A DNA stretch of 64,000 nucleotides from Erigeron canadensis (taxonomy: Eukaryota > Streptophyta > Magnoliopsida > Asterales > Asteraceae): assembly GCF_010389155.1 (NCBI RefSeq), contig NC_057768.1, forward strand, positions 48,401,633-48,465,632. The letters run 5' to 3'. The notes under the pieces are model-generated. The model was given only the letters and a program-made list of their open reading frames with translations, was not told the origin of the DNA and did no database searches. The stretch's first letter is position 1. Every line of letters begins with the position of its first letter. This document shows, in pieces, positions 3,379-60,920 of this stretch. A program made the position numbers and the translations under genes.

Positions 3379-4482
3379 TGATCAATGTCGTTGGACCGAT
3401 AAAAAATAAAACTAATTACCACTAATTAGCTAGGGTAAGTCGAGTATCGTATCCACATGGAATCGAGGGAAAGTGTTAGACAATTTTATAAAATTAATTA
3501 AACTAGACATAAACTTAAAATCGATTTGATTGATTGGTTTGTTTGATTAAAACTAAAGTTGAGCATAAACTTAACAAAATACTTCAATTAACAAAGTAGA
3601 CCATTCTCATGCTCCTAATTATGCTTTCAAATATGTAACCTAACTTATATTCGTTGGAAATCACATAGACATGATTCGTTATAACGTTTGGAATGAATAA
3701 CTTTAAGAACTAAAGTAATCGGTTGTGATGATTCACGATAACGAAAAACCGAGGAATTGACACAACTAGATTTTCAATTCATTAAAATAGAATTACTAGT
3801 TCATGAGAGATTCTTTCAATAATCCATGATAAACACTAATTTGAAATCAAAAGATAGATGAATTTCATTCAAGGTCATAAACAAGTAATCATTCATTCAA
3901 ATCCAAACAACATTAGATGCAAAACACAATTAAGAATTAAACATCTAATCCAACATGAATATGAGAAAGGTTGAACATAAAAGTCTTACATAATTGTTCA
4001 CATGAGAATGATCAATAGAAACCCTAGCCTATAATCTTCATCATTGATTCTTCAATTAAAGCTTGAATCTCCATGGAATTGTGATTTGATGATGATCTTG
4101 GGGTGTTGTGTATGTTAGGAAACTGCCCAGGGATGATAAAATATGAAGTGATTACTTCCCAAGTCGTCCATGAGGGAATTATAAACTGAAAAGTAATTAA
4201 ATCCCTAATTTTCGGATTTTTAGTGCAGCTAGGGCCGTCCCAGACTGTCACCAGGGCGTCTGAGACTGCCTTCCAGAAATGGCAATTTTCCAGATTTTTG
4301 CCTTGACACTTCTTGACTCGATTCTTGACTTTGCTTGACTTGTTTATGATCCATTTAACTTTAATTTGTCACCAAAGACCTGAAACACTTAAACAAACAT
4401 AAAAACGCCCTAATCGTCTATTAACATTCACAAAACATGTCCGTTTTCATATCTTAAAGTAGTACGGATTAGGCGTTTATCA
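3379..4482 (-). repeat. LTR-like repeat, possible solo LTR
   Basis: A block of about 1.1 kb with TG at its left edge (TGATCAATGTCG) and CA at its right edge (GGCGTTTATCA), interrupting a different repetitive background. On the minus strand it starts TGATAAACGCC and ends CATTGATCA, the TG...CA pattern of an LTR. The flanking five bases (TTACC and CTACT) agree only in part, so there is no clean target duplication. No internal retroelement coding region accompanies it. It could be an old solo LTR or the end of another repeat class. Confidence 0.4.
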
Positions 4483-4555
4483 CTACTGCTACCAATTACA
4501 ACTACCTTTACCAAACATACTCATTGTTTATAAGCATTCGTTTGTAAGTTTAACA

Positions 4556-4708
4556 TGAAAGATTATTGAATGATATGTTTTTCATTGAATCCTATTAAAA
4601 TACAAACGTCTTATATAATGTGAAGATACAACCAAATCCCCATAAATATAGGAGGCTCATAAATATGAAATCAATGTAAAATTATAGCTAATATAGTTTC
4701 CGCTAATA
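4556..4708 (-). repeat. Copia 3' LTR
   Basis: Direct copy of 9173-9324. On the minus strand it begins TATTAGCGG and ends TTTCA, so it lacks the usual TG start. The polypurine tract lies directly upstream of it in element orientation. Confidence 0.92.
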
Positions 4709-4719
4709 TTCCCCCTCAG
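4709..4719 (-). other. Copia polypurine tract
   Basis: Minus-strand GAGGGGGAA sits directly against the 3' LTR. This is the expected plus-strand primer for reverse transcription. Confidence 0.8.
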
Positions 4720-7080
4720 TTGGAACGTGGATAGGCAGAAACGTTCAAGCTGGAGCGAAACAACTCAAACAGGTAGCGTGGAAGGCCTTTTGTAAATATG
4801 TCAGCATATTGCGCGGAAGAGGGCACGTGTAGAACCCGAATATGACCAATCCTAACTTTTTCACGAACGAAGTGAATGTCCATCTCCACATGTTTGGTAC
4901 GTTGGTGCTGGACAGGATTACCAGATAGGTAAATGGCAGACACATTGTCACAAAAAACGACAGTAGCTTTCTGAACTGGAACTCTTAACTCGAGAAGTAG
5001 ATTTCGAACCCAAGTAGCTTCGGCTACTGCATTAGCAATGCCTCTATATTCAGCTTCCGCACTCGACCGTGAAATAGTCTGTTGTCGCTTAGACGACCAA
5101 GAGATGAGATTATTGCCAAGAAAAATGCAGTAACCATATGTAGAGCGACGAGTGTCGGGGCAACCCCCCCCCCCCCAATCTGCATCAGAGTAAGCAGTCA
5201 AGGCATGATTGGGGGATGCTGATAAGCGAAGACCAAAATCCATAGTGTCATGTAAATAACGTAATACTCGTTTAAGGAGGGCAAAGTGAGGTTCCCTTGG
5301 AGCGTGCATGAATAGGCATATTTGTTGCACTGCATAGGAGATGTCGGGACGAGTAATAGTGAGGTACTGTAAGGCACCCGCTAAACTGCGGTATAGAGTC
5401 CCATCTGGAAGAAGTACCCCCTCAGTGGCACTAAGTTTAGAGTTCGTATCCACAGGAGTAAGACAAGGTTTGCATGTGGTCATATTTGCCAAATGAAGAA
5501 TGTCTCGGGTGTATTGAGACTGACCTAAAATCAAGGACTGATGATCACGAGTGACTGTGATGCCAAGGAAATAATGAAGATTTCCCATATCAGACATTGC
5601 AAACTCATTTGATAACTTTGTGATGATTGCGGTGAGAAGACTTTGATGACTTGCAGTAAGCATGATATTGTCCACATAAAGAAGAAGATAAGCGAGTTGA
5701 TCACCATGTTGGTAAATAAATAATGACGTGTCACACACACTGCTACGAAACCCCAAAGAGCTTAGGTAAGAGGAGAACCGTGTATACCATGCCCGTGGTG
5801 CCTGTTTTAGGCCGTATAAAGACTTTCTTAAGCGACAAACATGATTCGGGTGTGCGGGGTCGATGAACCCAGGTGGTTGAGTCATGTACACAATTTCTTG
5901 AAGTGTGCCATTAAGGAAAGCATTTTTTACATCTAATTGATGTATTGGCCACGATCTGGACACTGCTAATGACAAAACTGTACGAATGGTGGCTGGTTTA
6001 ACAACCAGGCTGAATGTTTCAATGCAATCAATTCCAACAGTTTGAGATTTCCCATTACAAACAAGACGAGTCTTATACCTATCCAATATGCCATCAGCTT
6101 TAAATTTATGGCGAAACAGCCACATCGATCTAATGATCGGGTAATCCATAGGTTTTGGAATAAGTTCCCATGTATTATTATCCTGCAAAGCACTAAATTC
6201 ATCGTTCATGGCACGAAGCCAATTATGGTTCGATAAGGCTTTCATATAAGAAGTTGGCACGGGAGAGATGACAGAGGTAGCGACCAGGTTATACCGCGGG
6301 TTTGGTTTGGTGACCCCCGCCTTGGATTGGGTCAACATGGGGTGGTCATTTGTTGGACCCGTGTTCACATTAGTTTGTTGGGCGTCAGATTGGGGTGGGA
6401 GGTGGCACGGTGGTGTAGGAGGTGCTGACACAGGTGGGGTGGTGGTGTGAGGTGCTTCGGTTTGAGTCGGGCTTGACGGGGGTTGTTGTGCCAAGGGTTG
6501 GCTTGCGTTTTGGGGTTGTGATGAGGGTGATGTAGAGGGTTGTTGTTGAACATGATGTGTAGGAGCAGCTGATGTTGGGAAGGACGGATGGAAGAAATGA
6601 GTTATGGTAGAAGGTGAGTCATCAAGGAAGGTGTAGGTGGAGGGTGAGGTTGGTTTAAAATCATTGAAAGGAAATGTTTTCTCATCGAAAATAACATGGC
6701 GGGAAAGATGTACCCGTCCCGTGATCGGGTCATAACATCGATTCCCTCGAAAGTCAGAAGGATATCCTAAGAATATGCATCGGGTAGACCGGGGTGAGAG
6801 TTTGTTAGGAGCCGTGGCTGACATGTTTGGGTAGCAAGCACAACCAAAAACACGAAGATGCTCATATGTGGGTTGGCGTAAGTAGAGGGCGTAGGCGGGT
6901 GTTTGGAACTGTAATCTTTTTGTTGGGAGGATGTTATGAAGATAGGTGGCGGTGTGTAGAGCTTCAACCCAAAATGTGGGTGGAAGATGAGCATGAGTTA
7001 GAAGAGCACGAATTATATCATTTAAATGACGTATCATTCGCTCGGACAGTCCATTTTGTTGGGATGTTTTGGGGGCAAGA
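4716..7080 (-). pseudogene. Copia integrase end, reverse transcriptase and RNase H
   Basis: The open frame 4716-7037 (773 residues), with its frame extending back to about 7080, holds the integrase C-terminus, a proline/serine/threonine-rich linker, and the copia reverse transcriptase (for example DVKNAFLNG and LYGLKQAPRAWY). RNase H follows (SSAEAEYRG, then ADIFTKGLP near the C-terminus). It would convert element RNA to DNA in virus-like particles. The metal-binding motif normally YVDD reads YVDN; the Asn codon is at 5667-5669, replacing a catalytic Asp, so polymerase activity should be lost. In RNase H the DADW motif is followed by four glycines coded by a long C run (plus strand 5163-5177). 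The frame is out of register with the upstream part by a single-base change. Confidence 0.93.
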
Positions 7081-8532
7081 GAACCGAAAGATTAGACCAT
7101 TTTGAGTTGCAAATGATTTAAAGCTATTGTTATCAAATTCACCACCAAGATCACATTGAAAGGTTTTAATGGTTGACTGGAATTGAGTTTGGACTAATTT
7201 GTGAAATTTGACAAATGTTGGGAATGTTTCAGATTTGTAATTTAACGGATACACCCAAACATAATTTGTATAATTGTCAATTAGAACCATGTAATATTTG
7301 AAACTAGAATGACTTAAAACAGGGGATGTCCAAAGATCACAATGAATAATATCAAATGGTTTAAAAGTAAATGAAACAGAATCACTAAAAGGCAAACGTT
7401 TACTGTTGGATACTTGGCAAGAGTGACAAACCGAAGATCCAACAGCTTTATTACAAGGAAAAAAAGAACGACTAAGATAGTTGAGCACGGTCTCTCCAGG
7501 GTGTCCTAGACGATCATGCCATGGAATGGATGGTGACCGTAAAGAAAGGGCAAGCTCAGTAAATGGATAGAGTTCGCGGTCACTGTTGTGTCGGGAAAGG
7601 AGGCGTCCATCCTTGAGGTCCTTCAAAGAAAAACCAAAAGGGTCAAATGTAACAGAAACTTGGTTATCAATGGTAAATTTTCGTACAGATACTAAATCTT
7701 TAACTATGTTAGGGGAGTGAACAATATGATTGAGGTGATATGTTTGTTGTGGGAGTTTGAGAAAGCCATTACCGGAGCCATTTACTTGTAATGATTGGCC
7801 ATTACCGACAAGAATAGGACTAGTAGGAGATAAGCATGAAGTAGTGATTTTACCTCGGTTGGATGTTATGTGGGAAGTAGCTGCTGAATCCATGTACCAA
7901 TTTGGATCGTTGTAGTTCAAACTCATGGTCAAAAGTGTTGTTCCAATATCACTCGGGCATAGAGCATTATTACTTGATGGGCTGAACCCAGGAGGAGCCG
8001 AAAAAGAGGCGTGATTTGTTAGACGGGCCTGCGGGGGCTGTGATGGGTAAGGTGTTGGTGGCGGAGTCCATTGGTTTGGGTATTGGGCTTGATAAAAAGA
8101 GTTTGGGTTGTAAGGTGGATGGGCTTGCCATGTGCTCCGATTATTCCCGGTAGACTGTTGGGTTTGTTGAGCCTGACCCCATGCACTCTGCCCATGAAAT
8201 CCAGTCGACCTAGCGTCCCTTGCCGTATATTGCCCACTGCGAGACTGTTGACCACGTCCCCGTGCGGCTCTAACCGAGTCATAATTTTTTCCTCTGTACC
8301 CATTTGGATATGGTGAACAAACTAAACTAGAGGAGCCTGACTGGTTGGTGTGATTGTTGTAGCTATGCGCTTGTGTTTGTGAGAGGAGGACGGTTTCACG
8401 ATTTGTTCTGGTCCTAGCCGCCTGAAGTTGTTGCTCAGCTTCAATCATACCCCTGGCGACGTCCCATGATGGACAACTTTGATTGATAATTGCCCCGATT
8501 GCATTGTACTCAGCTGGGAGACCTCGAACCAT
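7018..8532 (-). pseudogene. Copia gag C-terminus, protease, integrase core
   Basis: A 504-residue open frame. It starts inside gag (MVRGLPAEYN), has a Gln/Ser/Pro-rich spacer without a CCHC knuckle, then the protease motif WYMDSAATSH, the integrase zinc-binding region (WHDRLGH with CHSC) and the integrase core. The first two acidic residues of that core are in HCDLW and QCDLGGEF. It terminates early after a single-base change in a C run near 7080 moves the reading frame, so the third acidic residue of integrase is coded in the next open frame. The start shown is only the first Met after the upstream stop. Confidence 0.9.
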
Positions 8533-8550
8533 TTGGATAACAAGACGACT

Positions 8551-9090
8551 TTAGGTAACAGGTTGATCTATGTCACCTAGTTGATTGGCTATATCTTTCA
8601 AATTTTGGCAATACTCGTCAAAGGATGCGCCAGAAGTGAGAGTAGTATTGCTGAATTTCTGTTCGAGCGTGGCTGCACGAGCATGTTTGTTGTTGATGAA
8701 GATGCCCTGTATTTTCAGCCAAGCTTCACGAGCAGTGATATCATTATCAAGAACCCGGGCAAGAAAATCATCGGAGAGAGTACTATAGATCCATTGAAAA
8801 ATCAAGGCATCGAGTTCTGACCACGCCATGTAAGACGGATCTGATTGGTCGGGTGGGTCGGTTCCATCAATGTGGTTGAGAACTTTATAAGCTCGTACAT
8901 GTAGTTTGAATAGCTTGACCCATGACGAATAAGTAACCTTCTTTCCATCAAGGGTGCGGATCTTGTTGTTGATGTTTGTGACGGAATAGGCTGGATGTAA
9001 GGATTGCTTGTCGGGATTGGTTGTGTTGTTTTTGTCGGAATCTTCTTTATTATGAAGGGTTTTGTCTGAATTTTCAGGATTGTCTCCCAT
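8551..9090 (-). pseudogene. Copia gag N-terminal part, cut by a stop codon
   Basis: Starting at the ATG at 9090 (MGDNPENSD), this frame codes a copia-type gag polyprotein head: YSSWVKLFKLHVRAYKVL and the segment through ARAATLEQKF. This is the UBN2-type gag of plant copia elements. It ends at a TAA at 8551-8553. The same frame stays open downstream and continues as gag (8532 onward), so the stop is a simple nonsense change rather than a real gene end. An in-frame Met lies further upstream at 9201, inside the LTR, and is less likely. Confidence 0.88.
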
Positions 9091-9158
9091 GGTGGTAAAA
9101 GGGGACGAACAGAAAGAAAGAAAGAAAAAAAAGATAAAAAAAATTAAGGTTTTAGTTT

Positions 9159-9172
9159 GGCTCTGATTACCA
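9159..9172 (-). other. Copia primer-binding site with one extra base
   Basis: Directly inside the 5' LTR the minus strand reads TGGTAATCAGAGCC. The usual plant copia site complementary to initiator-Met tRNA is TGGTATCAGAGC, so this copy has one extra A. Confidence 0.85.
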
Positions 9173-9324
9173 TGAAAATTATTGAATGATATGTTTTTCA
9201 TTGAATCCTATTAAAATACAAACGTCTTATATAATGTGAAGATACAACCAAATCCCCATAAATATAGGAGGCTCATAAATATAAAATCAATGTAAAATTA
9301 TAGCTAATATAGTTTCCGCTAATA
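9173..9324 (-). repeat. Copia 5' LTR
   Basis: Direct copy of 4556-4708 with one base missing near its left edge and one substitution. In element orientation this LTR supplies the promoter. Confidence 0.92.
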
Positions 9325-9518
9325 TAACATTTCTCTTTATATGTAGACTTTTTGTAAGCAAAATTTATACAAAAATTTCAACAAAAGGAAGTTTTACCAA
9401 GAATCATATATCGCTAATAATTTACTGGAAAAAAAAATTACAATGTGATATAAACTTTGTATCTACTATCATAAGTTATTTTGTGTTTATATAAAAGTGT
9501 ATATATGTATTATATAAT

Positions 9519-11460: not shown

Positions 11461-11645
11461 ACGATATTATCAATATTAGATTTTCATACATTTAATTCAT
11501 AAAAGCTTATAATTTTGAACGTATACGGTTCTAATTGACATTGTTATACTTTGCAAGTTGTAGTACAATAATCACAAGTTCGTCACCGTCATTATTGGTT
11601 GAGACTTATTGATGGAATTATTTGTCGTAGTCATTCCACAAGACA

Positions 11646-13003
11646 TGTTGGAAAACTTAATGTCAAAACATTTACGTATAGAAGTCAGTTTGTATATATG
11701 TGGGTCAAATACTTTAGTCTAGTATAATTGGGTCATTAGATGGGCTATTCGGTTTGGGCTGCAAGCCAACAAACCTTCTGTATATATAAATAAAGCCCTG
11801 TGTCGATTAGATAGAAACGTTGCCACAGTTATCCATCAGTTATACCGGTTCACTATGAAACTGCCATTCACACCTGTTGGAAGCAACGATTAAGTGTGTG
11901 TATATACTAGGATATGTGTCGATCAAAACTATCAGTTGTATCACAATTCTCTGTTAATATTATTAGTGTTATTATTATAGTTATTCTCCTTCTATTTCTC
12001 TATATCTTTATCGATAAAACCTGTGATGAATTTAACCAAGAAACCAGTCACGGTTGGTGTTTTGGTCAAAAATTATCCAAGATAATCAACCTTGAAGACT
12101 TAGATCAACTATGTAACCAAACTTTCGTTCGTGAGTTTAAGGGCTTGTAAAATTGGTTTAGATTCAAAGATGCGTTTAAAATAAGTATGATAAATCAAGA
12201 TTATGTCGACTTAAACAAAAGAAGGTAGTCAAAAGATTTCGCAAATAACTATATAATCAAATATAAGATAGATTAAGCAAGATAAAGAAAGATAAACGTA
12301 AATAAATGCGGAAAATAAAGAGAAAGGAACAAAGAACACCGAGATTTGTTATCGAGGAAAAGCCCTTAATCCTTATGGATTGCCGGCATAAAAACCCGGG
12401 AGGAAGCAATCGTCCCTGCCTTGTTCTTTATTAATGGTGTAAATTGGTTACAATGATAGAGCGACTTGATCGATCTTTCTAAGTAAAGAAAAGTGTGTTG
12501 GTTGTTTACAAGTGTGAGCAGAGAAAATAAGCAAGTAAATATGTGAGTGTGTGTAACGTTGTATATCCTATGATCGATCAGGTCCTCATTTATATAGAGC
12601 AGCCTAGTAACTAATTTTCCGAAATTACAGGGATCTTCCTGGTCTTCATCTGGTGAACGTTGAAGCATATCTTGACTGATATTGTAGCCGTTTGAAGATA
12701 TTCTCCTCATGCTGAATTCCTCTTGAAGTCCGATTATGATGCTGGACTAAGTCTTCTTTGCATGTTGATCAAATAAGACATGTGTTGAATCTCTTTTATA
12801 CCGTTAGAGATATTTCCCTTGTGATAAATATCAAGTTACCTGCATAATATTCTCATAAAAACAATACTTGAAGTTTATCGTTAGTAATTCGTCAAGGCGT
12901 GTCAAGATCCTGAAGGTCCATGATCTTGAGGTCCCAAGATAATGAAACCTGAAATTTCACCGATAACAGTTGGGATGAGAAATCGTCTTAATCAGACCTT
13001 ACA
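11646..13003 (+). repeat. 5' LTR of the ARID element, split by a solo LTR
   Basis: 11646-12057 and 12974-13003 together match the 3' LTR at 14945-15386 from TGTTGGAAAAC to CCTTACA. The 911-base block between them is a later insertion described separately. Confidence 0.9.
12053..12973. mobile_element. Solo LTR nested in the 5' LTR
   Basis: The inserted block 12058-12968 (911 bases) begins TGTTTTGGTC and ends CGATAACA. It is flanked by the exact 5-base duplication GTTGG (12053-12057 and 12969-12973), while the uninterrupted 3' LTR has a single GTTGG at that place. TG...CA ends, a 5-base duplication and no internal coding domain fit a solo LTR left by recombination of an unrelated element. Open frames inside it look incidental. 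Confidence 0.85.
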
Positions 13004-13562
13004 GTGGTATCAGAGCGTTGGGCTCGATTCCTGGAAGAAGCCAACACAAAGAAGATTGGGATTAGGGCTTAAAAATCCCCAATTCAATAAGAGGTTTGGT
13101 ATTGATTCACTACTATGGAAAAGAAATCAAGTCAGAAGGATCAGTCAAGAATGCAAACAATTTTTGAGAGACAAACTCTTGGAAATTGAAGGCTTTAACA
13201 AAAGAAAAGCCAAAGAATTTGGTATGATTCACGACACCAACAGACCATTCACTCAGGCCGAAAAGGGCAAGAAGAAGAAAGGGAGTATTCGGTGTCGACA
13301 TAGGGGACATCCCTATTGGTTTTGCCCACACAAGATTGAACCAGACTCTGACAAACAAAAACCACTTCCAGACCCCATGTTCGACCCGCAAGACAACAAA
13401 GAAAAAGGGGAAACGAGTGGTGGCAGTAATGAAGAATTAATGAAAGTTAATAGAGACGTTATGGTGAGGGAACGGTTGCACAAAACTGGAATGATATCTG
13501 TTATGTTAACCACACTATTAAAGATCATCTTAGTCCTTCCAAACATTTATTTGTTAGAATGA
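13004..13562 (+). pseudogene. N-terminal basic region of the ARID element protein
   Basis: The open frame covers a Lys/Arg-rich segment (for example FLRDKLLEIEGF, then KGKKKKG) and a Cys/His cluster, CRHRGHPYWFCP, that looks like a variant zinc-binding motif. A probable start (MEKKSSQ near 13116) lies in a neighbouring frame, which suggests a frameshift near 13150. After about 13470 the meaningful reading moves to the frame used by the downstream ORF, so the last 30 residues of this frame are probably not real. In that other frame, WNDICYVNH and following residues resemble the region before the copia pre-integrase segment. A TAG at about 13649-13651 interrupts it. Function unknown; a gag-like packaging role is conceivable. 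Confidence 0.5.
13005..13016 (+). other. Primer-binding site, ARID element
   Basis: TGGTATCAGAGC lies one base after the end of the 5' LTR. It is the standard complement of plant initiator-Met tRNA. Confidence 0.9.
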
Positions 13563-13660
13563 AACCCGCTTTCGATACACCAACGTATGAAATAGGAGAC
13601 AAATTCTTGTTTGTAAATGGAAGGGGCGAAGTGATTGTGGATACAAATTAGAATGGTTTA

Positions 13661-14755
13661 GTGATTCCTAATGTTTGTTACACACCAGAACTTGGAATTA
13701 ATGTTTTAAGTCACCAACAATTGTTAGCACAAGGTTATGAATTATTATTCAACCAAGGAAAGTGCAAAATTCGTTATATGTTTGATGAGTGTGAAGGATT
13801 TGAAGATGTGACTGAAGAAGATGTAAAGAACATTCAACATAAGCTTCTGGTGAGATATTATGATTCCCTTGTACCCAAGACGAAGGCTGACATTGAATAT
13901 GAACGTATGTGTGAAAAGTTGGAACTCAAACCAGAGATAGAAGTAAACGGCCAAGTCTACAATCTGCAAGTAGACTCACTTGAAGGGTTAGTAACTTTCT
14001 TTGATCTTGTTAAGAATAACTTTGTTTTGAATGGAAATAGGAAGTTATTTGATAAGCAATTCGATGAAATGGTGAAATGGTTCTACTCGAATTATTTGAA
14101 ACGATTGAAAGTAGAATGCATACCACCAACTGTAGGAAATAAGCAAATAAGTTTGTTAAAATTGTTTAAGATTGTTGAATCTTTTGGAGGGTATTACTCC
14201 CTGCTTTTTGGAAAGGTATGGGGAAAGGCTTGTGTGGAATTTGGAATACCTAAGGAGTATGAAAACGAGTTAAAGGATTGTTATATTAAGTTTATAGATC
14301 TTATAGTTTGTTATTATGAAACTGCCAAAAGGGTTGGCAAGAAAAGTGGTGTTTTAGAAGCCAATGAGGCTTGTGATTCTGTTGGAATCAGAAAGAAAGG
14401 TTTTGCTGGAACCATTGGAGATCGCCGTGGCGACCAGAGTATAGAAGGCACATTGGGTGCTAGTGGAAAAAATGGTAGGAACTTGTATGACAAACCAAAT
14501 GGGAAGAGCATAGTCGAAGAAGAACTCAAGACAAGCAAATCTATAACATGTTATCGCTGTCAAAACCTTGGACATTATGCCTATGAATGCCCAAGTAAAA
14601 ACAAGAACAATAGTGGAATAGAACTGAAGAACGATCAAGAAAGTGAAGGCTGTTTAAAGAATGGAATCGCAACGGGTCAAGGCTGCAAATTTGGAATCGA
14701 AACAGAGAAGAAAGGAGTGCTTGAGGACTGCAAAACTGCTGCAAAACTTTACTGA
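13661..14755 (+). CDS. ARID domain plus CCHC zinc-knuckle protein of an LTR element
   Basis: A 364-residue open frame. Residues 1-30 (IPNVCYTPELGINVLSHQQL) resemble the copia pre-integrase region. Residues about 130-222 match the ARID/BRIGHT DNA-binding domain: PPTVGNKQISLLKLFKIV, then FGGYYSLLFGKVW, then the closing helix ending YYE. Residues 297-310 form a CCHC knuckle (C297, C300, H305, C310, spacing 2-4-4), the motif retroviral and retrotransposon gag proteins use to bind nucleic acid. The first residue is GTG-coded; upstream the same frame is interrupted by TAG, so this is the downstream part of a longer protein. After the stop at 14753-14755, another frame continues with an acidic tail (EEDIDDDDF) ending near 14898, which implies a frameshift near the stop. 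ARID proteins normally bind AT-rich DNA in chromatin complexes; a role in the element is inference. Confidence 0.82.
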   Translation: MIPNVCYTPELGINVLSHQQLLAQGYELLFNQGKCKIRYMFDECEGFEDVTEEDVKNIQHKLLVRYYDSLVPKTKADIEYERMCEKLELKPEIEVNGQVYNLQVDSLEGLVTFFDLVKNNFVLNGNRKLFDKQFDEMVKWFYSNYLKRLKVECIPPTVGNKQISLLKLFKIVESFGGYYSLLFGKVWGKACVEFGIPKEYENELKDCYIKFIDLIVCYYETAKRVGKKSGVLEANEACDSVGIRKKGFAGTIGDRRGDQSIEGTLGASGKNGRNLYDKPNGKSIVEEELKTSKSITCYRCQNLGHYAYECPSKNKNNSGIELKNDQESEGCLKNGIATGQGCKFGIETEKKGVLEDCKTAAKLY

Positions 14756-14931
14756 TTGAAGATGGAACAATGTTCCAGCATGCCGAAGACAAACAAGCAA
14801 GCAACAAGAAATCTGCAGAAAGTTTGTACACTGATCAGAAAGGTGTCAATAAAGAAGAAGACATCGATGATGACGACTTTGTTATCATTATCAATTGAAG
14901 CCTCAAGTTCAAAGAAGGAAGACGTTTTGAC

Positions 14932-14944
14932 ATTAGGGGGGAAA
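14932..14944 (+). other. Polypurine tract, ARID element
   Basis: ATTAGGGGGGAAA lies directly against the 3' LTR. This is the expected plus-strand primer. Confidence 0.85.
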
Positions 14945-15386
14945 TGTTGGAAAACTTAATGTCAAAACATTTACGTATAGAAGTCAGTTCGTATATATAT
15001 GGGTCAAATACTTTAGTCTAGTATAATTGGGTCATTAGATGGGCTATTCGGTTTGGGCTGCAAGCCAACAAACTTTCTATATATATAAATAAAGCCCTGT
15101 GTCGATTAGATAGAAACGTTGCCACAATTATCCATCAGTTATACCGGTTCACTATGAAACCGCCATTCAAACCTGTTGGAAGCAACGATTCAGTGTGTGT
15201 ATATACTAGGATATGTGTCGATATAAACTATCAGTGGTATCACAATTCTCTGTTAATATTATTAGTGTTATTATTATAGTTATTTCCCTTCTATTTCTTT
15301 ATATCTCTATTGATAAAACCTGTGATGAATTTAACCAAGAAACCGGTCACGGTTGGGATGAGAAATCGTCTCAATCAGACCTTACA
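14945..15386 (+). repeat. 3' LTR of the ARID element
   Basis: An uninterrupted 442-base LTR, TGTTGG...CCTTACA. Over 412 plus 30 bases it matches the two parts of the 5' LTR. A possible TATA (tatatatataaata) is present about a third of the way in. Confidence 0.9.
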
Positions 15387-15391
15387 AGAGA

Positions 15392-26299: not shown

Positions 26300-26600
26300 T
26301 GTAACACCCTGCTTATAAAAATGTGGATTTCAAAAATTTTTCCAAAATAAAACATAACTCCGTTAAGTAAAGTGCGGAAGCGTCGTTCAAAAATCCCATT
26401 TGATCCGTAACGGAATCGATAAAAACATAATAAATGTCTTAAAAGATGTTACCAACAATATCATCACAATAGCCCAAATGAAATCCACAATCAACGTAAA
26501 AGACAACCGACATAATAATGGCCAAATGGCTAAATAATAAGTCTACTTAAATAAATGCAACTATGGGTAACTAAAGCCACAATCCTCAAGCTCCATAAGT
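26300..26600 (-). repeat. Truncated 3' LTR of the gypsy element
   Basis: 301 bases matching 29606-29906 with two differences. It then breaks at 26600 directly into reverse transcriptase sequence, the deletion junction. Confidence 0.9.
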
Positions 26601-27259
26601 CTACACAATTTCTTCTTCAAAATCTGAAAAGATCTTTCTTGTGAATCAGTCCACACGAACTTCACCCCTTTCTTTGTCAACTCAGTCATCGGCTTAGCAA
26701 TACGAGAAAAATCTTGAATGAACCTCCTGTAATAGCCAGCTAAACCCAGAAAAGACTTTATTTCCGTCGACGACTTCGGCTGCTCCCATTTCATCACAGC
26801 TTCAATTTTTGATGGATCAACTTTCAAACCTTCACTAGAAATGACATGCCCAAGGAAATGAACTTCCTTAAGCCAGAATTCACACTTGGAGAATTTTGCA
26901 TATAGCTTATTCTCCCTGAGAACCTCAAGAATAGTCCTCAAGTGCTCACGATGGTCTTCAACAGATTTGGAGTAAATAAGAATGTCATCAATGAAAACAA
27001 TGACAAAATGATCAAGATAAGGTCGGCAAACACGATTCATGAGATCCATGAAAGCAGCTGGAGCATTAGTCAAACCAAAAGGCATGACCAAAAACTCATA
27101 ATGCCCATAACGAGTACAAAAAGCTGTTTTAGCAACACTTTCTCCATCCACCTTCAACTGATGATAACCAGACCGCAAATCAATCTTAGAAAAATAAGAA
27201 GCACCCTGCAACTGATCAAATAAGTCATCAATACGAGGAAGAGGATATTTATTCTTCAC
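26601..27259 (-). pseudogene. Gypsy reverse transcriptase fragment
   Basis: Continues the gypsy pol frame after a stop near 27265. Reverse transcriptase motifs are well kept: [28 protein letters not shown], and the catalytic [10 protein letters not shown] with both aspartates. The connection region [16 protein letters not shown] follows. The frame then runs into the deletion junction near LKKKLC and ends in LTR sequence, so RNase H and integrase are missing. The apparent start is a GTG codon, not a true start. Confidence 0.93.
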
Positions 27260-27385
27260 CGTTTACTTGTTAAGCTCACGATAATCGATACACATCCTCA
27301 TAGAACCATCTTTCTTCTTTACAAACAGAATAGGAGCACCCCAAGGTGAGGAACTCGGACGAATAAACCCCTTATCAAGCAACTC

Positions 27386-29356
27386 TTAGAGCTGAGACAT
27401 CAACTCCTTCATCTCAGTAGGAGCGAGACGATAAGGTGCTTTAGCAACAGGGGTAGCACCAGGAATAAGATCAATATGAAACTCTACTTCTCTATCAGGA
27501 GGAAGACTAGGAAGATCATCTAGAAAGACATCAGGAAACTCAGCTACAACATCAACATCAGAGATAGAAGGATTAGCTTTTCGTGAATCAATCACATAAG
27601 CCAGAAAATGATCAGAATGATTCTTAGTCTGTCGGATACATCTAAGAGCTTTCACAAGAGAAACAATCTTCACACTACCCTTTTGTTTATCACCATAGAC
27701 AGAAACTACATCACCATCTGGAGTAGTGATATGCACAATCTTCTTAGAACAGAGAATAACAGCACCATTTTTAGACATCCAATCCATACCCACGACAATA
27801 TCAAAGCTAGAAACAGTAGTGGGCAACAAGTCAATAGAAAAAGAATGACCCTCTATCTCAATAGAACAATCAAAGAAGCCATTGCGAACCATAGAAGTAC
27901 GACCATCAACTATCTCAACCTCAATTGGTGTATCTAATGGGCGAGTTACTGTACCAAGCTTAGGAGCAAATAAAGTAGACACAAAAGATCTATTTGCACC
28001 AGAGTCAAATAACACATTAGCAAGAGAAGAATTAATAATAAAGGTACCGCTAACTACCTCATCATCTGATCGAGCCTGTTCAGCTGTCATGTTGAAGGCA
28101 CGAGCTGTAGTCCTCGGTCGCTCATTCTTTTTCTCACCCTCTTTTGCTTGCGGGAAATCAGCAATTTGATGTCCAGTCTTTTTACACCTATAACAACGAG
28201 CCTCCCCTGTACAATCTTTAGCCAAATGACCTGTAGCGGTGCACCTATTACAACGAAGAGTGCTAATAGTACACTGCCCAGTATGCTTAGACCTGCATCT
28301 ATCGCACCAAGTCCCAATCCTCTTATCATTACTGCTATTGGAAGAATTACCCTTAAACCTTTTATTCGACCCTGAAGACCTGTCATTGCTCCTTTTAAAA
28401 CCAGAATTACCGTCTTTCCTAACCCTGGACCCCAAGTCATACTCCACACGCTTGGCCTCATCAATAGCCAAACTCAAGGTAGTTTTACTCCTACAGAACC
28501 CACGATACTCAGCTGGAAGCCCATTCACAAAACGGGTAATAGTAGATGCTTCAGTACCACACAAGTGAGGGCAGAATGTCATCTTCTCAGTAAACAACTT
28601 AGCATATTCTTCCACAGATTTATCCCCCTTTTTGAGAGTCAAGAACGATTGCTCCAATACCTCTAAGTCCCTGTCAGTACAATACTCCCTTTCAAATAAC
28701 CCAACAAAAGACTGCCAAGTCATGCTAGAAATGTAAGCTCAACCCAAAACAGTGCGACGAGTATTCCACCAATCTAAAGCACTATCCTCAAACATTCTCG
28801 AGGCAAACAACACTTTCTTATTCTCCAGACAATCACAAGATTCAAATACAACTTCCATTTGCATAATCCAACGTCTATTGGCCACTGGATTGTGACCACC
28901 CTTGAAAAACTTTGGCTTGCATTTCATAAAATTATTATACTCATGAACTGTATCACGGTTACCCCCACGATCATGATTATTTCTGTTAATAATCCTATCA
29001 CCATCATCCCTACGCCTCCTATTAGTATCACCATCCCGACCATCAAGGGTCCTGTCCTCCTGTCGATGAATAGAGTGAATCGAAGAAGTATTACCCGTGA
29101 AAGAACGGGTGGGAGATGGTTCCTCATTCCGGCAGTTCCGGCGAGAGTAACTCTCTCCTGACCTTTCAGGCTGATTCAATAGATAATCCCTCTCATTTCT
29201 GATTTCAGTCAACTCAGCTCTTGTCCTGGTTAATTCATTGGTGACACTACGAAGCAATTCAGCCATTTCAGCTTCAGTGGGACGAGGATTCACATTGTTA
29301 TTTAGGTTACTAACACCCGGTCCATTAACACCATTCATGCTCCTTCTGTTCACCAT
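27386..29356 (-). pseudogene. Gypsy gag and aspartic protease
   Basis: Two open frames in the same register, 28739-29356 and 27386-28723, separated by a TGA. The first starts MVNRRSMNG and contains the gag head. The second has the gag core (MTWQSFVGLFEREY), then zinc knuckles. One CCHC motif is intact (C158 to C171 of this frame). The next has CYRC...GH but phenylalanine replaces its last cysteine (position 190). The protease motif LFDSGANRSFVS has its catalytic Asp at 240. The frame stops at 27386 by a TAA where the homologous region before reverse transcriptase should continue; reading in the same frame resumes at once. Confidence 0.92.
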
Positions 29357-29591
29357 AATTCTATAAAATCACAACGACGAATTTAGAGACGGATATAGCG
29401 AGAAGTCAAGAAAATAAGGCTAAGCTACAAAAATATGCATATACACCACAAATACATATAAGCCTTAATCCTACTCTCACTCTCAAACCAAACCCGTCCT
29501 AAAGTAATCATGCTAAAGCTCAAATGCGCAATATATCACTAGTTTAAGTCCAAGACCTACACCTATGGCCAATGGTTCACTTAAACTATTA

Positions 29592-29603
29592 CTCTGATAC
29601 CAA
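29592..29603 (-). other. Gypsy primer-binding site
   Basis: The minus strand reads TTGGTATCAGAGTA two bases inside the 5' LTR (LTR end GTTACA, then AG). This fits initiator-Met tRNA. Confidence 0.85.
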
Positions 29604-29605
29604 CT

Positions 29606-32421
29606 TGTAACACCCTGCTTATAAAAATGTGGATTTCAAAAATTTTTCCAAAATAAAACATAACTCCGTTAAGTAAAGTGCGGAAGCGTCGTTCAAAAAT
29701 CCCATTTGATCCGTAACGGAATCGATAAAAACATAATAAATGTCTTAAAAGGTGTTACCAACAATATCATCACAATAGCCCAAATGAAATCCACAATCAA
29801 CGTAAAAGACAACCGACATAATAATGGCCAAACGGCTAAATAATAAGTCTACTTAAATAAATGCAACTATGGGTAACTAAAGCCACAATCCTCAAGCTCC
29901 ATAAGTAGCTACCCATCTCACCATCTACCGATCAGCTTCAAGTCCTAACTTGAGGGCACAACATTTTTCCACAAAACACAAGTGTCAGCTTAAAAGCCGA
30001 GTAAGATAACAGGTTAGTACAAAACAAGGATTGCCAATTAAAACATTTTTATAAAGAAATATATCTCACACATATGTATAGGCACAATCACCCAATTCCA
30101 CGTTAACAACATCATAAGGATATTTAATCCTATAAAGTGCCTAGCAATCCTTATTATTCCACGTTACAACACAATTTCCACATTCCACGTGATTCACGTA
30201 TAGTTATGCCATTATAGTCAACAATAAAATATTTGTGTGTAGGCGGTCATAAGACCTTGAGGAACCTCACACCCGACATGATGGGTAACCTTTCGGGGTC
30301 CATCGACATCGTTATGGATAGGCATAACCAAATCCATGAGCAAACCGTTTCCGCACGTATGGTGGTCAATCACTCCACCCGGTATACTCTTTCTACGATG
30401 ATTGAGTCACACGGGAAGCATGTACATTGCCCCCGAGTGATCCACGTACACAAGAGTCCATTGGACTAATGTGGGTTAAGCTTAACACTTTTCCACGTTG
30501 TGCTCGAGACTTAAACACACGATAAATTCCACGTTAACACATGATAATTCCTCGTTAAACTATTAGGGCCCCTAACGTGCTTCGTGATATGACAACTTAA
30601 ATAAGTCTAGTGTACTATGTGTACAAGTCCAACAATAAAGACACGTCACATTCACCATCACACATCATTATCCATATAGCATACATAATTAATAAATTCC
30701 CAAATAACCGCCCAAAAAAATCCCATACAACACATATGCATGAGATAACTTCAATAATTAAAAGGGGTTATATTAAAACTACGTTTTATTGTGTCCCCCA
30801 TCGTGACAAAAGTAAGTTATCTTACCTTTAAGAGCTTCACAAACCACAAATAAGAATATTTTACCAAGCTTGTTATGTATTCCCGACAACCTATAGACGA
30901 CCAATAATTAAGATAAGCCAATAAAGAATAAACACTAAAAACTGCTAAATAGTACATCATAAAATCACTTTTATTCATCTACTACTACTCGATTAGAAAG
31001 CAACAAAATGAAAATGTCACTTTATTTCCTGTTGAACGACTCGTGTGAAACAACAGCAGAAGAATCCATTTGTTTATGATTGTTATTCACCAAAGAAGCC
31101 AAAATTACACCAAACAATATATGTATATATATAATATATTGTTATTATGGTTATATTAATCAGATAAAAATGTTTTGTTTCCCATTTTGTCAGTATCTCA
31201 TGAGATGGCAGGAACAAGTGGCCAAGCCCAATTTTTTCGGTCATATAATTTTAAAAAAGAGAACAACACACTTTTTCATTCTCATTGTGTATTACTAGTA
31301 TTAGGACTAATGTACTATGATGATGAAACTCGTTACTAACTCACCTGGCCACAACTATCCTCCTCATTTATATTTATTAAACTTACTATGTACTATAACT
31401 AGACAATAAAACAAGCAATAGGAATGAACCACAATTTTGACTCCTTTCACTTGTATGTCATACGACATTTTCAAAGAACAACAAAACCAACCAACTTTTT
31501 CTCTTTTAAATTAGACTACTAAAACAACATCTTTTTATTATTATATACATATAGGTACTTCAATATGTATATATATATATATAATTAAAACAAATGGACA
31601 AATCACCTCTCCTTTCTTTCTTTTGATCCATACGAAACATAGACACAGAAACAACATGACTTTGTAGGATACACAATTTCTTATATAATATTATATATAG
31701 GGCCTAGTCTTGTATGTATGAAGCAAAATATGTATTTTTATTATTTACTTTCATTGAAACCTGGACACACTTGAGTATCTCTTTTGTGAAAACTACAAAC
31801 AACCAAGCCACAACACCTTTAATATATATATATATATATATATTATATTAGTTTGATAAAATAAAGAAACATTCAAAAAGACGACAAAAGTTGACTTCTT
31901 TTATTACCTTATTAATTGTGTTACTGCTATGGGAAAAAGAGGAACACGAATACATTCTAATGGTAACAATGAACTCCTTTCTTTTCTTCTATTGGGAATG
32001 ACGGCTAGAGACTGCTAAAGATAACAATTTTCTTTTTCCTATTCGACGGCACCAACAGGGAAAGTAAACAATGACTAGATTATGGACTAACCTGACATCT
32101 TATTAGGTTTTAGCAATATTAACATTTAACACCCTCCTAGTTTAAATAGATTAATGGCAGCCTCAAGCAACTTTATATAACGACAACTAATATCAAGTCG
32201 ACACTAAAGGGAACACACATCACCTTAACAAACCTTAATGGTAAACATATATCGCCACTTTTAATCGCACAAAATGGGTACCCCTACCCAAATTTATCCA
32301 CCTAAACAAATAATAATTGACATCATAATTATTCACCTAAATATAAGGTCACCTAACTCTAGGACAACATTGACTAACGGTCAAAGTCAACGAAATGAAT
32401 AAAAGAGTTCGGGATGTTACA
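29606..32421 (-). repeat. Gypsy 5' LTR, 2.8 kb
   Basis: A 2816-base LTR with TGTAACA...TGTTACA ends. It contains no recognisable gene. Short frames at 30233-30469 and 30610-30831 are incidental. TA microsatellites are at about 31568-31582 and 31820-31843. Confidence 0.88.
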
Positions 32422-32532: not shown

Positions 32533-34483
32533 TAAGGCCGGTCACTAAGCTGTGTCGACAGCCTCTTCCACGCCTCGTCGACTAGGCAAGGCTCAGGGAG
32601 GGAGTCCATCGACAGGAGCTTCCTTAGACTTGTTTCGTTTGTACGATGACCATTGACGCGGAGGAGGAGCATGGGGTGTGACCTTGTTAACGTTAAGTTG
32701 TTTTTTTTTATTCAAACGACTAGATTTAAAAAAAAAACTCCTCTATAAAAACCAACTTCTATTCAACCATTCTCATCTCATTCACTTCTTTTCACTCATA
32801 TATTTTTATACATAACAACACACACTCCTTACATTTTCACTAAATATGTCGAGTTCTGACGAAGATTCAGTTTCATACATGAGTAAATATACAATAGATG
32901 CGGAAATGTTAAACACTTTCGTTACTTTAATCGAAGATGAAGAAGCAGAAGCAGAGAGCTCGAGAATGGCAATCAAACCAAAAATACCGAGACGAACACT
33001 AACCAGAAACCATGTGGAAGCCTCCACACTTTTATACAATCATTACTTTGCCCTGCAACCCGTTTTTCCTGCCGATTATTTTAGAAGGCGTTTTCAAATG
33101 CCGAAAGAAATGTTTCTTCGCATAGTGAACGATATATATAACTTTGACGTCGTACAACCATTACCGCCCCACTTTGCATTCTTCCACAATGCTCCAACCG
33201 ACGCTGTGGGTCGCCCGACGTTAACATTTTTCAAAAATGTACTTTCGCTATACGCCAACTGGCTTATGGTTCTACAGCCGACCAGTTAGATGAATACCTC
33301 GAAATGGGTGCTCAAACGTCTGCCGATTCGTTGAACTCCTTCTGCAAATGTGTTGTTCAATTATATCATGCCGAGTTTTTGAGAAAACCAACACAAGAAG
33401 ATGTTAACCACGTGACCGCTAAACATGAGGCGGTACACGGTTTTCAGGGTATGCTTGGAAGCGTTGATTGTACGCATTGGGCTTGGAGAAACTGCCTAAC
33501 GGCATGGCAAGGCCAATACACTCGTGGTGACAAAGGACATCCGACGATTATGCTTGAAGTGGTTGCTTCTTATGATTTGTGGCTTTGGCATGCTTACTTT
33601 GGACCCGCCGGTTCGAACAATGACATCAACGTCCTTAATGAATCTGACTTGTTCGACCAGCTTCTCCAAGATAGAGCTCCTGCGGTAAATTTCACCGTTA
33701 ATGGCCAACAGTTTACAAAGGGTTATTATCTAGCTGATGGTATTTATCCAGAATGGGCTACACTTGTCAAGTCTTTCAAGTGTTCCATGGACCCTAAGAC
33801 CTCTAAATTCAAACGCTTCCAAGAGTCTGCAAGAAAAGACGTGGAGCGTGCTTTTGGGGTACTTCAAGGCCGATGGAGAATCCTTCAACAGGGTGTGCGT
33901 CCATTAAGTATTAACAAAATTAAACGCATCATGTACTCTTGTGTGTTGTTGCACAACATGGTCGTTAAATATAACGGGCGTGCAATCAGTCCTTTGGATT
34001 TGGAGGTAATTCCCGATAACCCGCCAACGCGTTCTTGGGACGAACGTGTTGACATTCAGTTACGTATGACAGGGGAGTTACGTGATAAGGGGACACACAA
34101 CCGTCTAAGAGGCGCCCTAGTCGAGCACATTTGGAACTTGCCGGAAAACCAACATGAACGTTGAGTGTATTTTGTTTTTTCTAGTTGTGTTTTTTTAATT
34201 AATAAATGTAATGTATTGTGTTTTTTATTTATTAATGTAGTGTGTTTTTTTTAATAAATGTAGTGTGCTTTTTTAATATTTAATTTTAAATAAATGTTGA
34301 ATTATTTATTTTTTATGTAAATATAAAATAAAATAATAAAATAAAAAGTGTAGAAGAGGTATGGAAGAGGGGTTATAGGGAATGATTGTGGAAGAGGTGG
34401 ATGAAGAGAGAGAAAAGCTGATGTAACAGTGTGGAAGATGTGTGAAAGAGGTGGAAGAGGTTCTAGCTTAGTATAAGGCCTAA
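32533..34483 (+). mobile_element. PIF/Harbinger DNA transposon, nearly intact
   Basis: The element is 32536-34480, flanked by TAA at 32533-32535 and 34481-34483. The terminal inverted repeats are imperfect: left GGCCGGTCACTAAGCT..., right (minus strand) GGCCTTATACTAAGCT..., both followed after a few bases by CCTCTTCCAC. The inside carries a transposase gene broken by one frameshift. TATA-like tttatacata lies just before the coding start. The left TAA is shared with the neighbouring MITE. Confidence 0.88.
32846..34164 (+). pseudogene. PIF/Harbinger transposase with one frameshift
   Basis: The two frames 32846-33289 (147 residues) and 33304-34164 (286 residues) together cover a plant PIF/Harbinger (HARBI1-like) transposase. 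Frame one has an acidic N-terminus, then the conserved FPADYFRRRFQMPKEMFLRI segment. It runs out of register in a T run near 33230; the sequence just after reads correctly one frame over (IRQLAYGSTADQLDEYLEMG). Frame two contains the catalytic acids: D55 in GSVDCTHW, D107 in PAGSNNDINV and E181 in KDVERAFGVLQGRW. It ends normally. A single-base change therefore disables an otherwise well-kept enzyme. The Myb-like partner ORF that autonomous Harbinger elements carry is absent here. Confidence 0.92.
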
Positions 34484-55289: not shown

Positions 55290-55533
55290 AAAGTCCAGTC
55301 CTTCACTTGCTAGCGCAGTGGTAGGACACCCGGAAGTTGGAGCGAGGGTCACAAGTTCGAATCTCATCTCGAGCATTATGGCTGGCCAGGTTTCTTGGCG
55401 GAGCGAGTTGAATTTACCGGGTGGGGCGGGCGGGGGGAGGGAATCGGGTAGGCCCACGGTATTCAGTCCGGATACCCGTGGTCCGGCCCTTCACTGTTCT
55501 ATAAAAAAAATATATAAAAAAAATAAGAGTCTA
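55290..55533 (+). mobile_element. SINE inserted in only one duplicate
   Basis: Box A TAGCGCAGTGGTAGG at 55311-55325 and box B AGTTCGAATCT at 55354-55364, followed by a GC-rich body and an A/T-rich tail. Flanks aagtcca (55291-55297) and gagtcta (55527-55533) look like a target duplication. The duplicated region at 59625-59650 shows the empty site (aaaaaagtccaattccag). It belongs to a different family from the SINEs at 1743 and 16440. Confidence 0.85.
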
Positions 55534-55899
55534 ATTCCAGTATATCTATTAAAACCAGTTTCATGTTCATATTTAGCAAAACAAGCACTTCCTTTATATA
55601 AAAATTTTGATTCAGTCTACCTTTAAAGCTAAATCCATATGATATCAAACAGTCCATTTATGGTCTATTTATCGAAGTTGATCACATGTACAAGGGTATA
55701 ATTGTACCCCATAAAAACAGAACTTGCCTCATTACATATTTTAACCAGTCTTGTTTTAGCGCTAGTTCTATATGATATCGAGTCGTACATCTCATGTCAA
55801 CTTGTTGCAAGAGAATTTTGTGACTACATAGATTCTTCTAGTAGGGAGGAATTCAAAAGCAACTGAAACTTTAGTAACATAAGCAACCCAAATAATAAA

Positions 55900-56870
55900 A
55901 TGTCAAAACCACAAAAGATAGGAGAAGTCAAATGCAAATGCAGTCCCCACAACAAGAACAACCTACATACAGATGATCAACCCTCGAGTACAAGCCTAAA
56001 AGTACAAGAAAAAGTTGAAACACACATTTAGGTGCTCTAGTATGCGAATTCAAAAGTAATTGAATGGCTCAAAACATATGTAACCCCATTATTAAAAACA
56101 CCAAAAACCACATAAAGTAAAAGAAGTCAAAAGCTAATGCAATCTTCACTACAAGAACCCTAAAACACACAATTAACGGTCAAGTACAAGCCTCAAAGTA
56201 CAAGAGAAGCTGGAACGAGTGTTCAGGTGTTCTTGTAGTGGGGTATAAAAAAGCAACTGAACATTTTAAAAACGTATCCAACCACATTGTCAAGAAAACG
56301 TAAAAACCAGAGTAAGTAGGGGAAGTCAAAGGCTAAAGCAAGTTCAAGTACAAGAACCTGCATACACATAATCAAACCCTCAAAAGCACAAGCCTCAAAG
56401 TACTAGAGAGTTGAAACAAGTGTAAATCTGTGTTCTAGTAGTGGATGAAAGCAATTGAAAACTTTATAAGCATATGTAAAACCAGTCCCCATTAGCAAAA
56501 CATGAAAACCACATAAAATAAGGGGAATTCGAAAGTTAAAGCAATTCCCAGTACAAGAACCTGCATACACATGATCAAACCCTCAAGCACAAGCCTCAAA
56601 GTACTAGAGAGTTGAAAGAAGAGTAAACCTATGTTCCAGTAGTGGATAGATAATACAAAAGCAGTTGAAAACTTTATAAACATATGTAAAACCAACCTCC
56701 ATTAGCAAAACATGAAAACCCATAAAATAAGGGGAATTCAAAAGCAGATGCAAACCCCTCTACAACAACAGTCTAGATACACACAATCAACCCTCAAGTA
56801 CAAGCCTCAAAGTACAAGAAAAGTTGAAACGAGTGATTAAATGTTCTAGTAGTTGAGAACTGCAAATGGT
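55900..56870. repeat. Minisatellite of about 200 bases, five units, left array
   Basis: The phrase CAAGCCTCAAAGTAC recurs at 55991, 56187, 56389, 56590 and 56801 (spacings 196, 202, 201, 211), each time followed by a GTTGAAACGAGTGTT-like phrase and TTCTAGTAGT. Units are diverged. Confidence 0.85.
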
Positions 56871-60009: not shown

Positions 60010-60920
60010 TAAATGTCAAAATCACAAAAGATAGAAGAAGTCAAATGCAAATGCAATCCCCACAACAAGAACAACCTGCATACAGATGATCAACTCTCGA
60101 GTACAAGCCTCAAAGTACAGGAAATGTTGAAACACATGTTTAGGTGCTCTAGTATGCGAATTCAAAAGCAATTGAACAGCTCAAAACATATGTAACCCCA
60201 TTATTAAAAACGCCAAAAACACATAAAGCAGGAGGAGTCAAAAGCTAATGCAATCTCCACTACAAGAACCCTAAAACACACGATCAACAGTCAAGTACAA
60301 GCCTCAAAGTACAAGAGAAGCTGAAACGAGTGTTCACATGTTCTAGTAGTGAATTGAACATTTTGAAAACGTATCCAACCCCGTTATTAAGAGAACATAA
60401 AAAACAGATTAAGGGAAGTCAAAAGCAAAAGCAATTCCGAGTACAAGAACCAGCATACACATGATCATACCCACAAGCACAAGCCTCAAAGTACAGGTGA
60501 GTCGAAACAAGTGTAAACCTGTGTTCTAGTAGTGGATAGAACATACAAAAGCATATGTAAAACCAACCCCCATTAGCAAAACATGAAAACCACATAAAAT
60601 AAGGAGTATTCAAAAGCAGATGCAAACCCCTCTACAGCAACAGTCTAGATACACACGATCAACTCTCAAGTACAAGCCTCAAAGTACAAGAGAAGTTGAA
60701 ACGAGTGTTTAAGATTTGTTATAGTTAGGGAATACAAAAGCATTTGGAATACCAAAATCAGAAGAAAAAAAACGGGGAAGCCCAAAAGTTAAAGCAATCC
60801 CCGCTACAAGAACAAACCTAGACACACACAATCAACTCTTAAGTACAAGCCTCAAAGTACAAGAGAAGTTGAAACGAGTGTTTAAGTGTTCTAGTAGTTG
60901 AGACCGAACTGCAAAATCGA
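60010..60920. repeat. Minisatellite of about 200 bases, five units, right array
   Basis: CAAGCCTCAAAGTAC recurs at 60104, 60298, 60480, 60673 and 60846 (spacings 194, 182, 193, 173). It is the duplicate of the array at 55900-56870. Confidence 0.85.

Follow-up and report, generated by a model that had tools for sequence, protein, structure and literature searches.

Structure of the element

The window analysed here is a stretch of 64,000 nucleotides of Erigeron canadensis (C8:48401633-48465632; NC_057768.1) from a 426.2-Mb assembly of 356 contigs, in which contigs C1-C9 are chromosome-sized (37.9-60.6 Mb for eight of them). At 11646-15386 it contains a long terminal repeat (LTR) retrotransposon without reverse transcriptase (RT), which encodes a fusion of a CCHC knuckle, a Copia-type barrel, and an ARID domain. 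An earlier sequence-only reading had proposed matching 442-bp LTRs, a primer binding site (PBS), a polypurine tract, and a near-perfect target duplication around this interior. All of these were found at the positions it gave, and the element is confirmed as an LTR retrotransposon without RT, present here as a decayed copy.

The two LTRs were identical at 424 of 442 positions, with 13 transitions and 5 transversions (Kimura two-parameter distance 0.042, 911-bp insertion excluded), corresponding to an age of approximately 1.6-3.2 million years at 1.3e-8 to 6.5e-9, the substitution rates used for LTR dating in plants. The pair was thus as the earlier reading had described it, but that reading had overlooked a nested insertion of 911 bp; the 5' LTR spans 11646-13003 and is complete apart from this interruption. 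With TG at its start, CA at its end, and a copy of GTTGG on either flank, the insertion is probably a later arrival, namely the solo LTR of an unrelated family. The PBS begins one base downstream of the 5' LTR, and its sequence (TGGTATCAGAGC) is presumably complementary to the 3' end of the initiator methionine tRNA. The features are listed in Table 1.

Table 1 Features of the element in the window.
Feature	Position	Strand	Evidence
Left target-site duplication AGACA	11641..11645	.	4/5 match to 15387-15391
5' LTR, first 412 bp	11646..12057	+	395/412 identical to 14945-15356
Nested 911-bp insertion, TG...CA	12058..12968	.	GTTGG at 12053-12057 and 12969-12973; splits 5' LTR
5' LTR, last part	12969..13003	+	Matches 3' LTR end; 12969-12973 is the duplicated GTTGG; in-frame ATG at 12975
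Primer binding site TGGTATCAGAGC	13005..13016	+	By sequence; identical or one-mismatch site in relatives
Upstream CCHC-like knuckle, degenerate	13284..13325	+	By eye, frame of 13005
Pol_BBD, Copia protease-type beta-barrel, catalytic Asp absent	13523..13738	+	PF22936, 35.0 bits, E 1.8e-8, X at stop 13649-13651
ARID domain	14027..14335 (Pfam stretch 14096-14296)	+	PF01388, 36.5 bits, E 6.5e-9; solved ARIDs match by sequence
CCHC zinc knuckle, intact	14543..14596	+	PF00098, 28.5 bits
C-terminal acidic tail ending DDDDFVIIIN	14725..14898	+	Shifted frame; resembles relatives' tails
Polypurine tract AGGGGGGAAA	14935..14944	+	By sequence; similar tracts in relatives
3' LTR, 442 bp, TG...CA	14945..15386	+	Window self-comparison
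Right target-site duplication AGAGA	15387..15391	.	4/5 match to AGACA

Domains of the window protein

The ARID domain and the intact CCHC knuckle, both proposed by the sequence-only reading, scored above the Pfam cut-offs (24.1 bits for ARID, PF01388; 20.8 bits for zf-CCHC, PF00098), as did the barrel (27 bits for Pol_BBD, PF22936). The in-frame TAG of the window copy was written as X for the barrel score; when the fragments were scored alone, only the one after the stop gave a match, at 16.8 bits. The coding frame is broken by this one stop and by changes of frame near 13465 and 14745. Nevertheless, the longest frame (367 codons) exceeded the maximum of 237 codons found in 1000 dinucleotide shuffles of the interior. 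The most upstream ATG reported by the script for this frame sits in the nested insert, and the LTR's own ATG is that at 12975.

The Pfam scan covered the window pieces and the relatives L031-L036 described below, and no gag domain was found in any of them. Neither RT nor integrase was reported in the window interior pieces, and a tblastn search that used the Copia element of the window as the query found no RT in the interior, consistent with the earlier claim that the polymerase is missing. This Copia element lies at 4550-9325 on the minus strand; its LTRs are 98% alike, it carries RVT_2, and its coding region is broken into the frames 8551-9207, 7018-8550, and 4716-7091.

The Copia similarity that had been noted in the N-terminal part of the window protein was borne out, but the segment is the Pol_BBD barrel and not the pre-integrase domain (gag_pre-integrs) with which it had been identified. 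The ARID occupies the place where pre-integrase, integrase, and RT follow the barrel in the window's Copia, a position that supports the proposal that it was inserted into or replaced Copia pol.

Copies of the window's subfamily

A genome search with the window LTR gave 17 matches, 3 of them inside the window, so that this LTR is not confined to its locus, as the alternative to the sequence-only reading would have had it. The search showed a subfamily of few copies. The closest relative, C5:12402020-12406870, has an LTR pair (12402020-12402459 and 12406431-12406870) around the same interior, with 1403 of 1499 positions identical to the window across the first 1.5 kb and one mismatch in the 12-base PBS. 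Its interior is broken by a 2,079-bp insert without any frame longer than 89 codons, and measures approximately 1.9 kb when the insert is subtracted. The LTRs of the two copies diverge by 10.3-12.0%, those within each pair by 4.1-4.3%. Furthermore, the subfamily is represented by a 5' fragment at C5:6626120 and, between two copies of TATAA, by a solo LTR at C5:40343569; ten weaker matches (67-77% identity) lay at nine places. The second knuckle is a trait of this subfamily.

The wider family in the genome

Protein searches of the genome gave 43 matches with the window frame and 80 matches with the L032 protein. Ten loci with the CCHC-BBD-ARID fusion were opened, namely the window, the C5 copy (C5:12.40M), and L031-L038; L037, L038, and the C5 copy were assigned to the family because the window or L032 protein matched them. 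The sequence-only reading had anticipated that ARID-CCHC relatives would sit between LTRs. Indeed, LTR pairs were present in eight of the ten loci (window, C5:12.40M, L031, L032, L033, L035, L036, and L038). Five of these eight pairs had perfect 5-bp target duplications (L031, AAATT; L032, TTAAA; L033, GACGC; L035, ATATA; L036, ATGTC), and no duplication was recognised at the pairs of C5:12.40M and L038. The six pairs other than those of the window and C5:12.40M all had purine tracts and an initiator-Met-like PBS, which was exact in three and had one mismatch in the other three (L031, L032, and L033); their interiors were 1610-2156 bp long and their LTR ages 0.9 to 3.1 million years at a rate of 1e-8. 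The LTRs of L032 and L036 start with TA, not TG. Across all eight, which fall into several subfamilies, the interiors span 1.6-2.2 kb, the C5 insert being subtracted.

The element at L036 (1448-3764) splits a Copia RT-RNase H (RT-RH) gene on the opposite strand. Matches to this gene run over 973-1446 and again over 3766-5499, and they stop and resume at the same residue, 624, which is a direct sign of insertion. At L034, the element is divided: its 5' part was found at C3:9540441-9541096, 5.9 kb upstream, and a Copia RT occupies the gap. Because of this arrangement, the Copia is probably a nested insertion. In the eight LTR-paired interiors, Copia RT gave no match (tblastn, E 1e-3).

Architecture of the family protein

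The family protein has the plan N-terminal region, CCHC, barrel without the catalytic Asp, one or two ARIDs, and acidic tail. The whole fusion was found as an unbroken frame in two loci (L032, 556 codons; L031, 656 codons), and in L033 the frame runs for 599 codons through both ARIDs with one stop ahead of the tail. Pol_BBD scored above the cut-off in L032 (45.1 bits), L036 (40.3), L033 (39.1), and L035 (29.6); Pfam did not report it in L034, which lacks most of the barrel. The ARID scores were 71.6 bits in L031 and 72.2 bits in L033, each with two ARIDs, and 38.6, 39.7, 31.8, and 36.9 bits in L032, L034, L035, and L036, respectively. By eye, a C-x2-C-x4-H-x4-C pattern precedes the barrel in L031, L032, L033, L035, and L036. 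The catalytic triplet D-[ST]-[GA] was absent from all eight element proteins compared (six by pattern, the window and L037 by eye), and the window's own Copia keeps D-S-A at that place.

In six of the eight LTR-paired copies (all but L031 and L038), the frame in which the PBS would be translated stays open upstream as far as an ATG within the LTR. Since the frame can start in the LTR and read through the PBS, the LTR, the PBS, and the protein N-terminus would evolve together. The PBS reads as Trp-Tyr-Gln or similar in L032, L033, L035, L036, L025, and the window, with Trp-His-Gln in L033 and Trp-Cys-Gln in L025. At the other end, acidic tails with an aliphatic run are seen in L031, L032, L033, L034, L035, L036, L038, and the window (14866-14895); to the eye, these tails resemble a SUMO-interaction motif (SIM).

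Probable selection on the fusion protein

Over 510 aligned codons, the window and C5 copies had a ratio of nonsynonymous to synonymous divergence (dN/dS) of 0.387 (bootstrap 0.25-0.62), with dS 0.120 and dN 0.047; the two alternative frames gave ratios of 0.74 and 1.14. The dS value is near the 10-12% divergence of the LTRs of these copies. On the assumption that the LTRs are neutral, and for this one pair of copies, drift after insertion would contribute approximately 0.021 in each copy; the two contributions amount to 0.043 and leave almost none of dN unexplained, so that dN before insertion would be near zero against a dS of approximately 0.08. For this one pair, selection probably acted on the fusion protein in the period when the element was mobile.

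Origin of the fusion

Of the 80 genome matches of the L032 protein, approximately 50 cover its knuckle and barrel (residues ~98-275); they lie mostly in long frames, of up to 1363 codons, which we take to be putative Copia polyproteins. The ARID search of the genome gave 26 matches: 15 of them, spread over 12 loci, belong to the family, and the other 11, from 10 loci, lie outside it. This assignment of 12 of 22 ARID loci is our own, made from the protein matches, and the count is a lower bound made exon by exon. Four of the ten outside loci were opened (L039-L042), and 5 of the 11 outside matches are short. All four lack BBD; one encodes JmjN-ARID-PHD-JmjC and three encode ARID only. A tree of 13 ARIDs set the nine from elements apart from these four with a support of 80/94, a value that the program does not regard as firm. 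The second ARID of L031 and that of L033 grouped together (96/96), so the doubling looks older than these subfamilies.

The sequence-only reading had raised the possibility that a domesticated protein became mobile. This direction is unsupported, given that the ARID tree is not firm and that the CCHC-BBD block is Copia-like. It is simpler to suppose that a Copia-derived element captured an ARID, because the element ARIDs lie on one side of the tree and the CCHC-BBD block matches Copia-like frames. The lineage is derived from Copia, yet it is not a Copia member by the order of pol, since no RT or integrase was found in its interiors.

Proposed mode of propagation and alternatives

We favour, as the likely explanation, a non-autonomous LTR lineage of several members that arose from Copia and is mobilised in trans, with a protein that would bind the element's own RNA and tether it to chromatin. 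The lineage would have retained its LTRs, a PBS of the initiator-Met type, the polypurine tract, and one gag-like fusion frame. Ordinary Copia elements would supply RT and integrase in trans, as the absence of both from the interiors and the complete insertions suggest; such helpers are plausible because, among 20 stretches of 10 kb sampled blindly, 8 had matches to the window-Copia proteins. The knuckle would contact the RNA of the element, and the ARID would bring the protein to AT-rich or ARID-accessible chromatin, a contact that may aid packaging, nuclear return, or site choice. ARID factors are described as members of PEAT complexes tied to heterochromatin (PMC8725346), which makes chromatin steering plausible. 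A more elaborate version, which we regard as possible and put forward tentatively, is that the core of pseudo-protease and knuckle serves this enzyme-less lineage, a parasite of Copia, as a minimal nucleocapsid, that the ARIDs steer RNA or cDNA to particular chromatin, and that the SIM-like tail docks on SUMO-marked chromatin.

Several observations weigh against mobilisation in trans of an intact family with this protein. An autonomous partner sharing the LTRs, which the sequence-only reading had proposed to look for, was not seen with three LTR queries, few of whose weak matches were opened; two weak LTR relatives, L028 and L029, had no Copia match within 1.5 kb. L034 has only a partial 3' LTR, and no LTR was visible within 5 kb of L037. 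A tblastn query of protease to integrase missed even the barrels, so that remnants of integrase could escape in the C5 copy, L037, and L038. As for the domains, L031 scored 17.7 bits for Pol_BBD, short of the cut-off, and no relative had an upstream knuckle above the Pfam threshold: L031 reached 14.4 bits against 20.8, L035 reached 13.6 against 27 with a related model, and L032, L033, and L036 gave no Pfam match. The AlphaFold model of the window ARID was of low confidence (pLDDT, the predicted local distance difference test, 61.9) with Foldseek E-values of at least 0.38, so that the predicted fold offers weak support for this domain. Regarding selection, the segments of the window pair disagree, with 1.27 in the C segment and zero synonymous changes in the segment after the ARID; the L032-L034 pair is weaker (0.536; 0.35-0.88), and L032-L036 (0.451; 0.19-1.32, spanning 1) is too young to decide. 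In addition, the family, LTR, and ARID searches all cover a single genome.

The short copies could alternatively be deletion derivatives of an autonomous ARID-bearing Copia, with the selected protein belonging to the parent. The CCHC-BBD block is of Copia type, and a parent of this kind would explain purifying selection in the source copies. However, none of the open frames that contain matches of the ARID search exceeds 656 codons, none of the eight LTR-paired interiors matched Copia RT, and these interiors keep to 1.6-2.2 kb across subfamilies. The LTR queries revealed no element with pol among the few weak matches opened, and the Copia RT beside L034 is best read as nested. We therefore consider such a parent unlikely. 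It is harder still to see the ARID as a passenger, a host-gene fragment of no use to the LTR element that took it up, even though capture of genes by LTR elements is described as common (PMC3726574) and ARIDs without BBD do occur at four genome loci (L039-L042). The same fusion recurs across divergent subfamilies, and the element ARIDs stand apart from the four others (not firmly), and L031 and L033 have second ARIDs that group with each other; from this grouping and recurrence, the fusion looks old and inherited. Moreover, dN/dS is below 1 with dS near the LTR divergence, and young copies keep open frames. Passenger capture is accordingly improbable.

We give very little credence to a host ARID-CCHC gene, a domesticated Copia remnant, that lies between LTRs by chance or was picked up again. 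The fusion at L037, with no visible LTRs in 5 kb, would fit such a gene, and LTR-free fusions of Gag with host proteins have been described in sunflower (PMC9784723). LTR pairs at eight of ten loci, five perfect target duplications, and one copy within a Copia gene argue otherwise, as do the four opened ARID loci outside the family, which have no BBD match.

Relationship to known elements

LTR elements that lack pol are generally regarded as empty shells (TRIM, terminal-repeat retrotransposons in miniature; LARD, large retrotransposon derivatives) or as Gag-only elements. TRIM and LARD have no coding capacity, and the present family has frames of 556 and 656 codons. The family described here is an LTR lineage that derives from Copia, has no enzyme of its own, and encodes a CCHC-pseudo-protease-ARID protein. 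The window's Copia resembles it in having Pol_BBD and LTRs; this type of primer site and 5-bp duplications are common to Copia generally. The Copia differs in its gag, DSA barrel, pre-integrase, integrase, and RT, and in LTRs of 160 bp that are unlike those of the ARID element by self-comparison.

Chromoviruses carry their chromodomain at the end of integrase in autonomous Gypsy elements. The window family has its ARID in a gag-like protein, is derived from Copia, and lacks integrase. The likeness to these Ty3/Gypsy elements with a chromodomain, as they are outlined in PMC2864245, lies in an LTR element that carries a chromatin-reading module, and is an analogy only. The TR-GAG and TR-RTE elements of PMC9784723 likewise have two LTRs, one coding frame, and no pol, and are presumably mobilised in trans; in contrast, the frame of the window family has no Pfam gag domain and encodes CCHC, a protease-like barrel, and ARID instead. 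The main text of that paper never uses the word ARID; the types it names are TR-GAG, TR-RT, TR-RT-RH, TR-RH, and TR-INT-RT. Its HadGAG and Ctrg host genes also join a retroelement protein to a domain of a host protein, but they are described with 4-10 exons and no LTRs, whereas the window family is bounded by LTRs, with perfect duplications in five of eight pairs. LTR elements with captured genes in rice, sorghum, and maize, as described in PMC3726574 (main text without the word ARID), share with the family a host-type domain between LTRs; here, however, the ARID is fused in frame to a Copia CCHC-protease, is recurrent, and is probably selected (one pair). No description of an ARID in an LTR element was found in the literature searched, which included few subscription papers and no databases of transposable elements.

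ARID is a DNA-binding module otherwise typical of chromatin regulators, and a small, probably selected protein that carries it makes it testable how plant parasites of Copia would find their RNA partners and insertion sites. Genes read as ARID or CCHC "regulators" in genomes like this one may turn out to be transposons, at least 12 of the 22 ARID loci here being in the family. ARID and CCHC are frequent labels among the annotated proteins of Asteraceae; to the extent that this holds, many of these proteins may be elements of this kind.

Other features of the window

A young Ty3/Gypsy-like element lies at 26300-29906 on the minus strand, with 301-bp LTRs that are 99.3% alike and a 3.0-kb interior containing gag, CCHC, RVP_2, and RVT_1; it is perhaps another shortened element. 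A transposase-like frame of 338 codons (Plant_tran / DDE_Tnp_4) was found at 33148-34164. Finally, 55525-56866 and 59638-60915 form a large diverged duplication (83%) with internal repeats.

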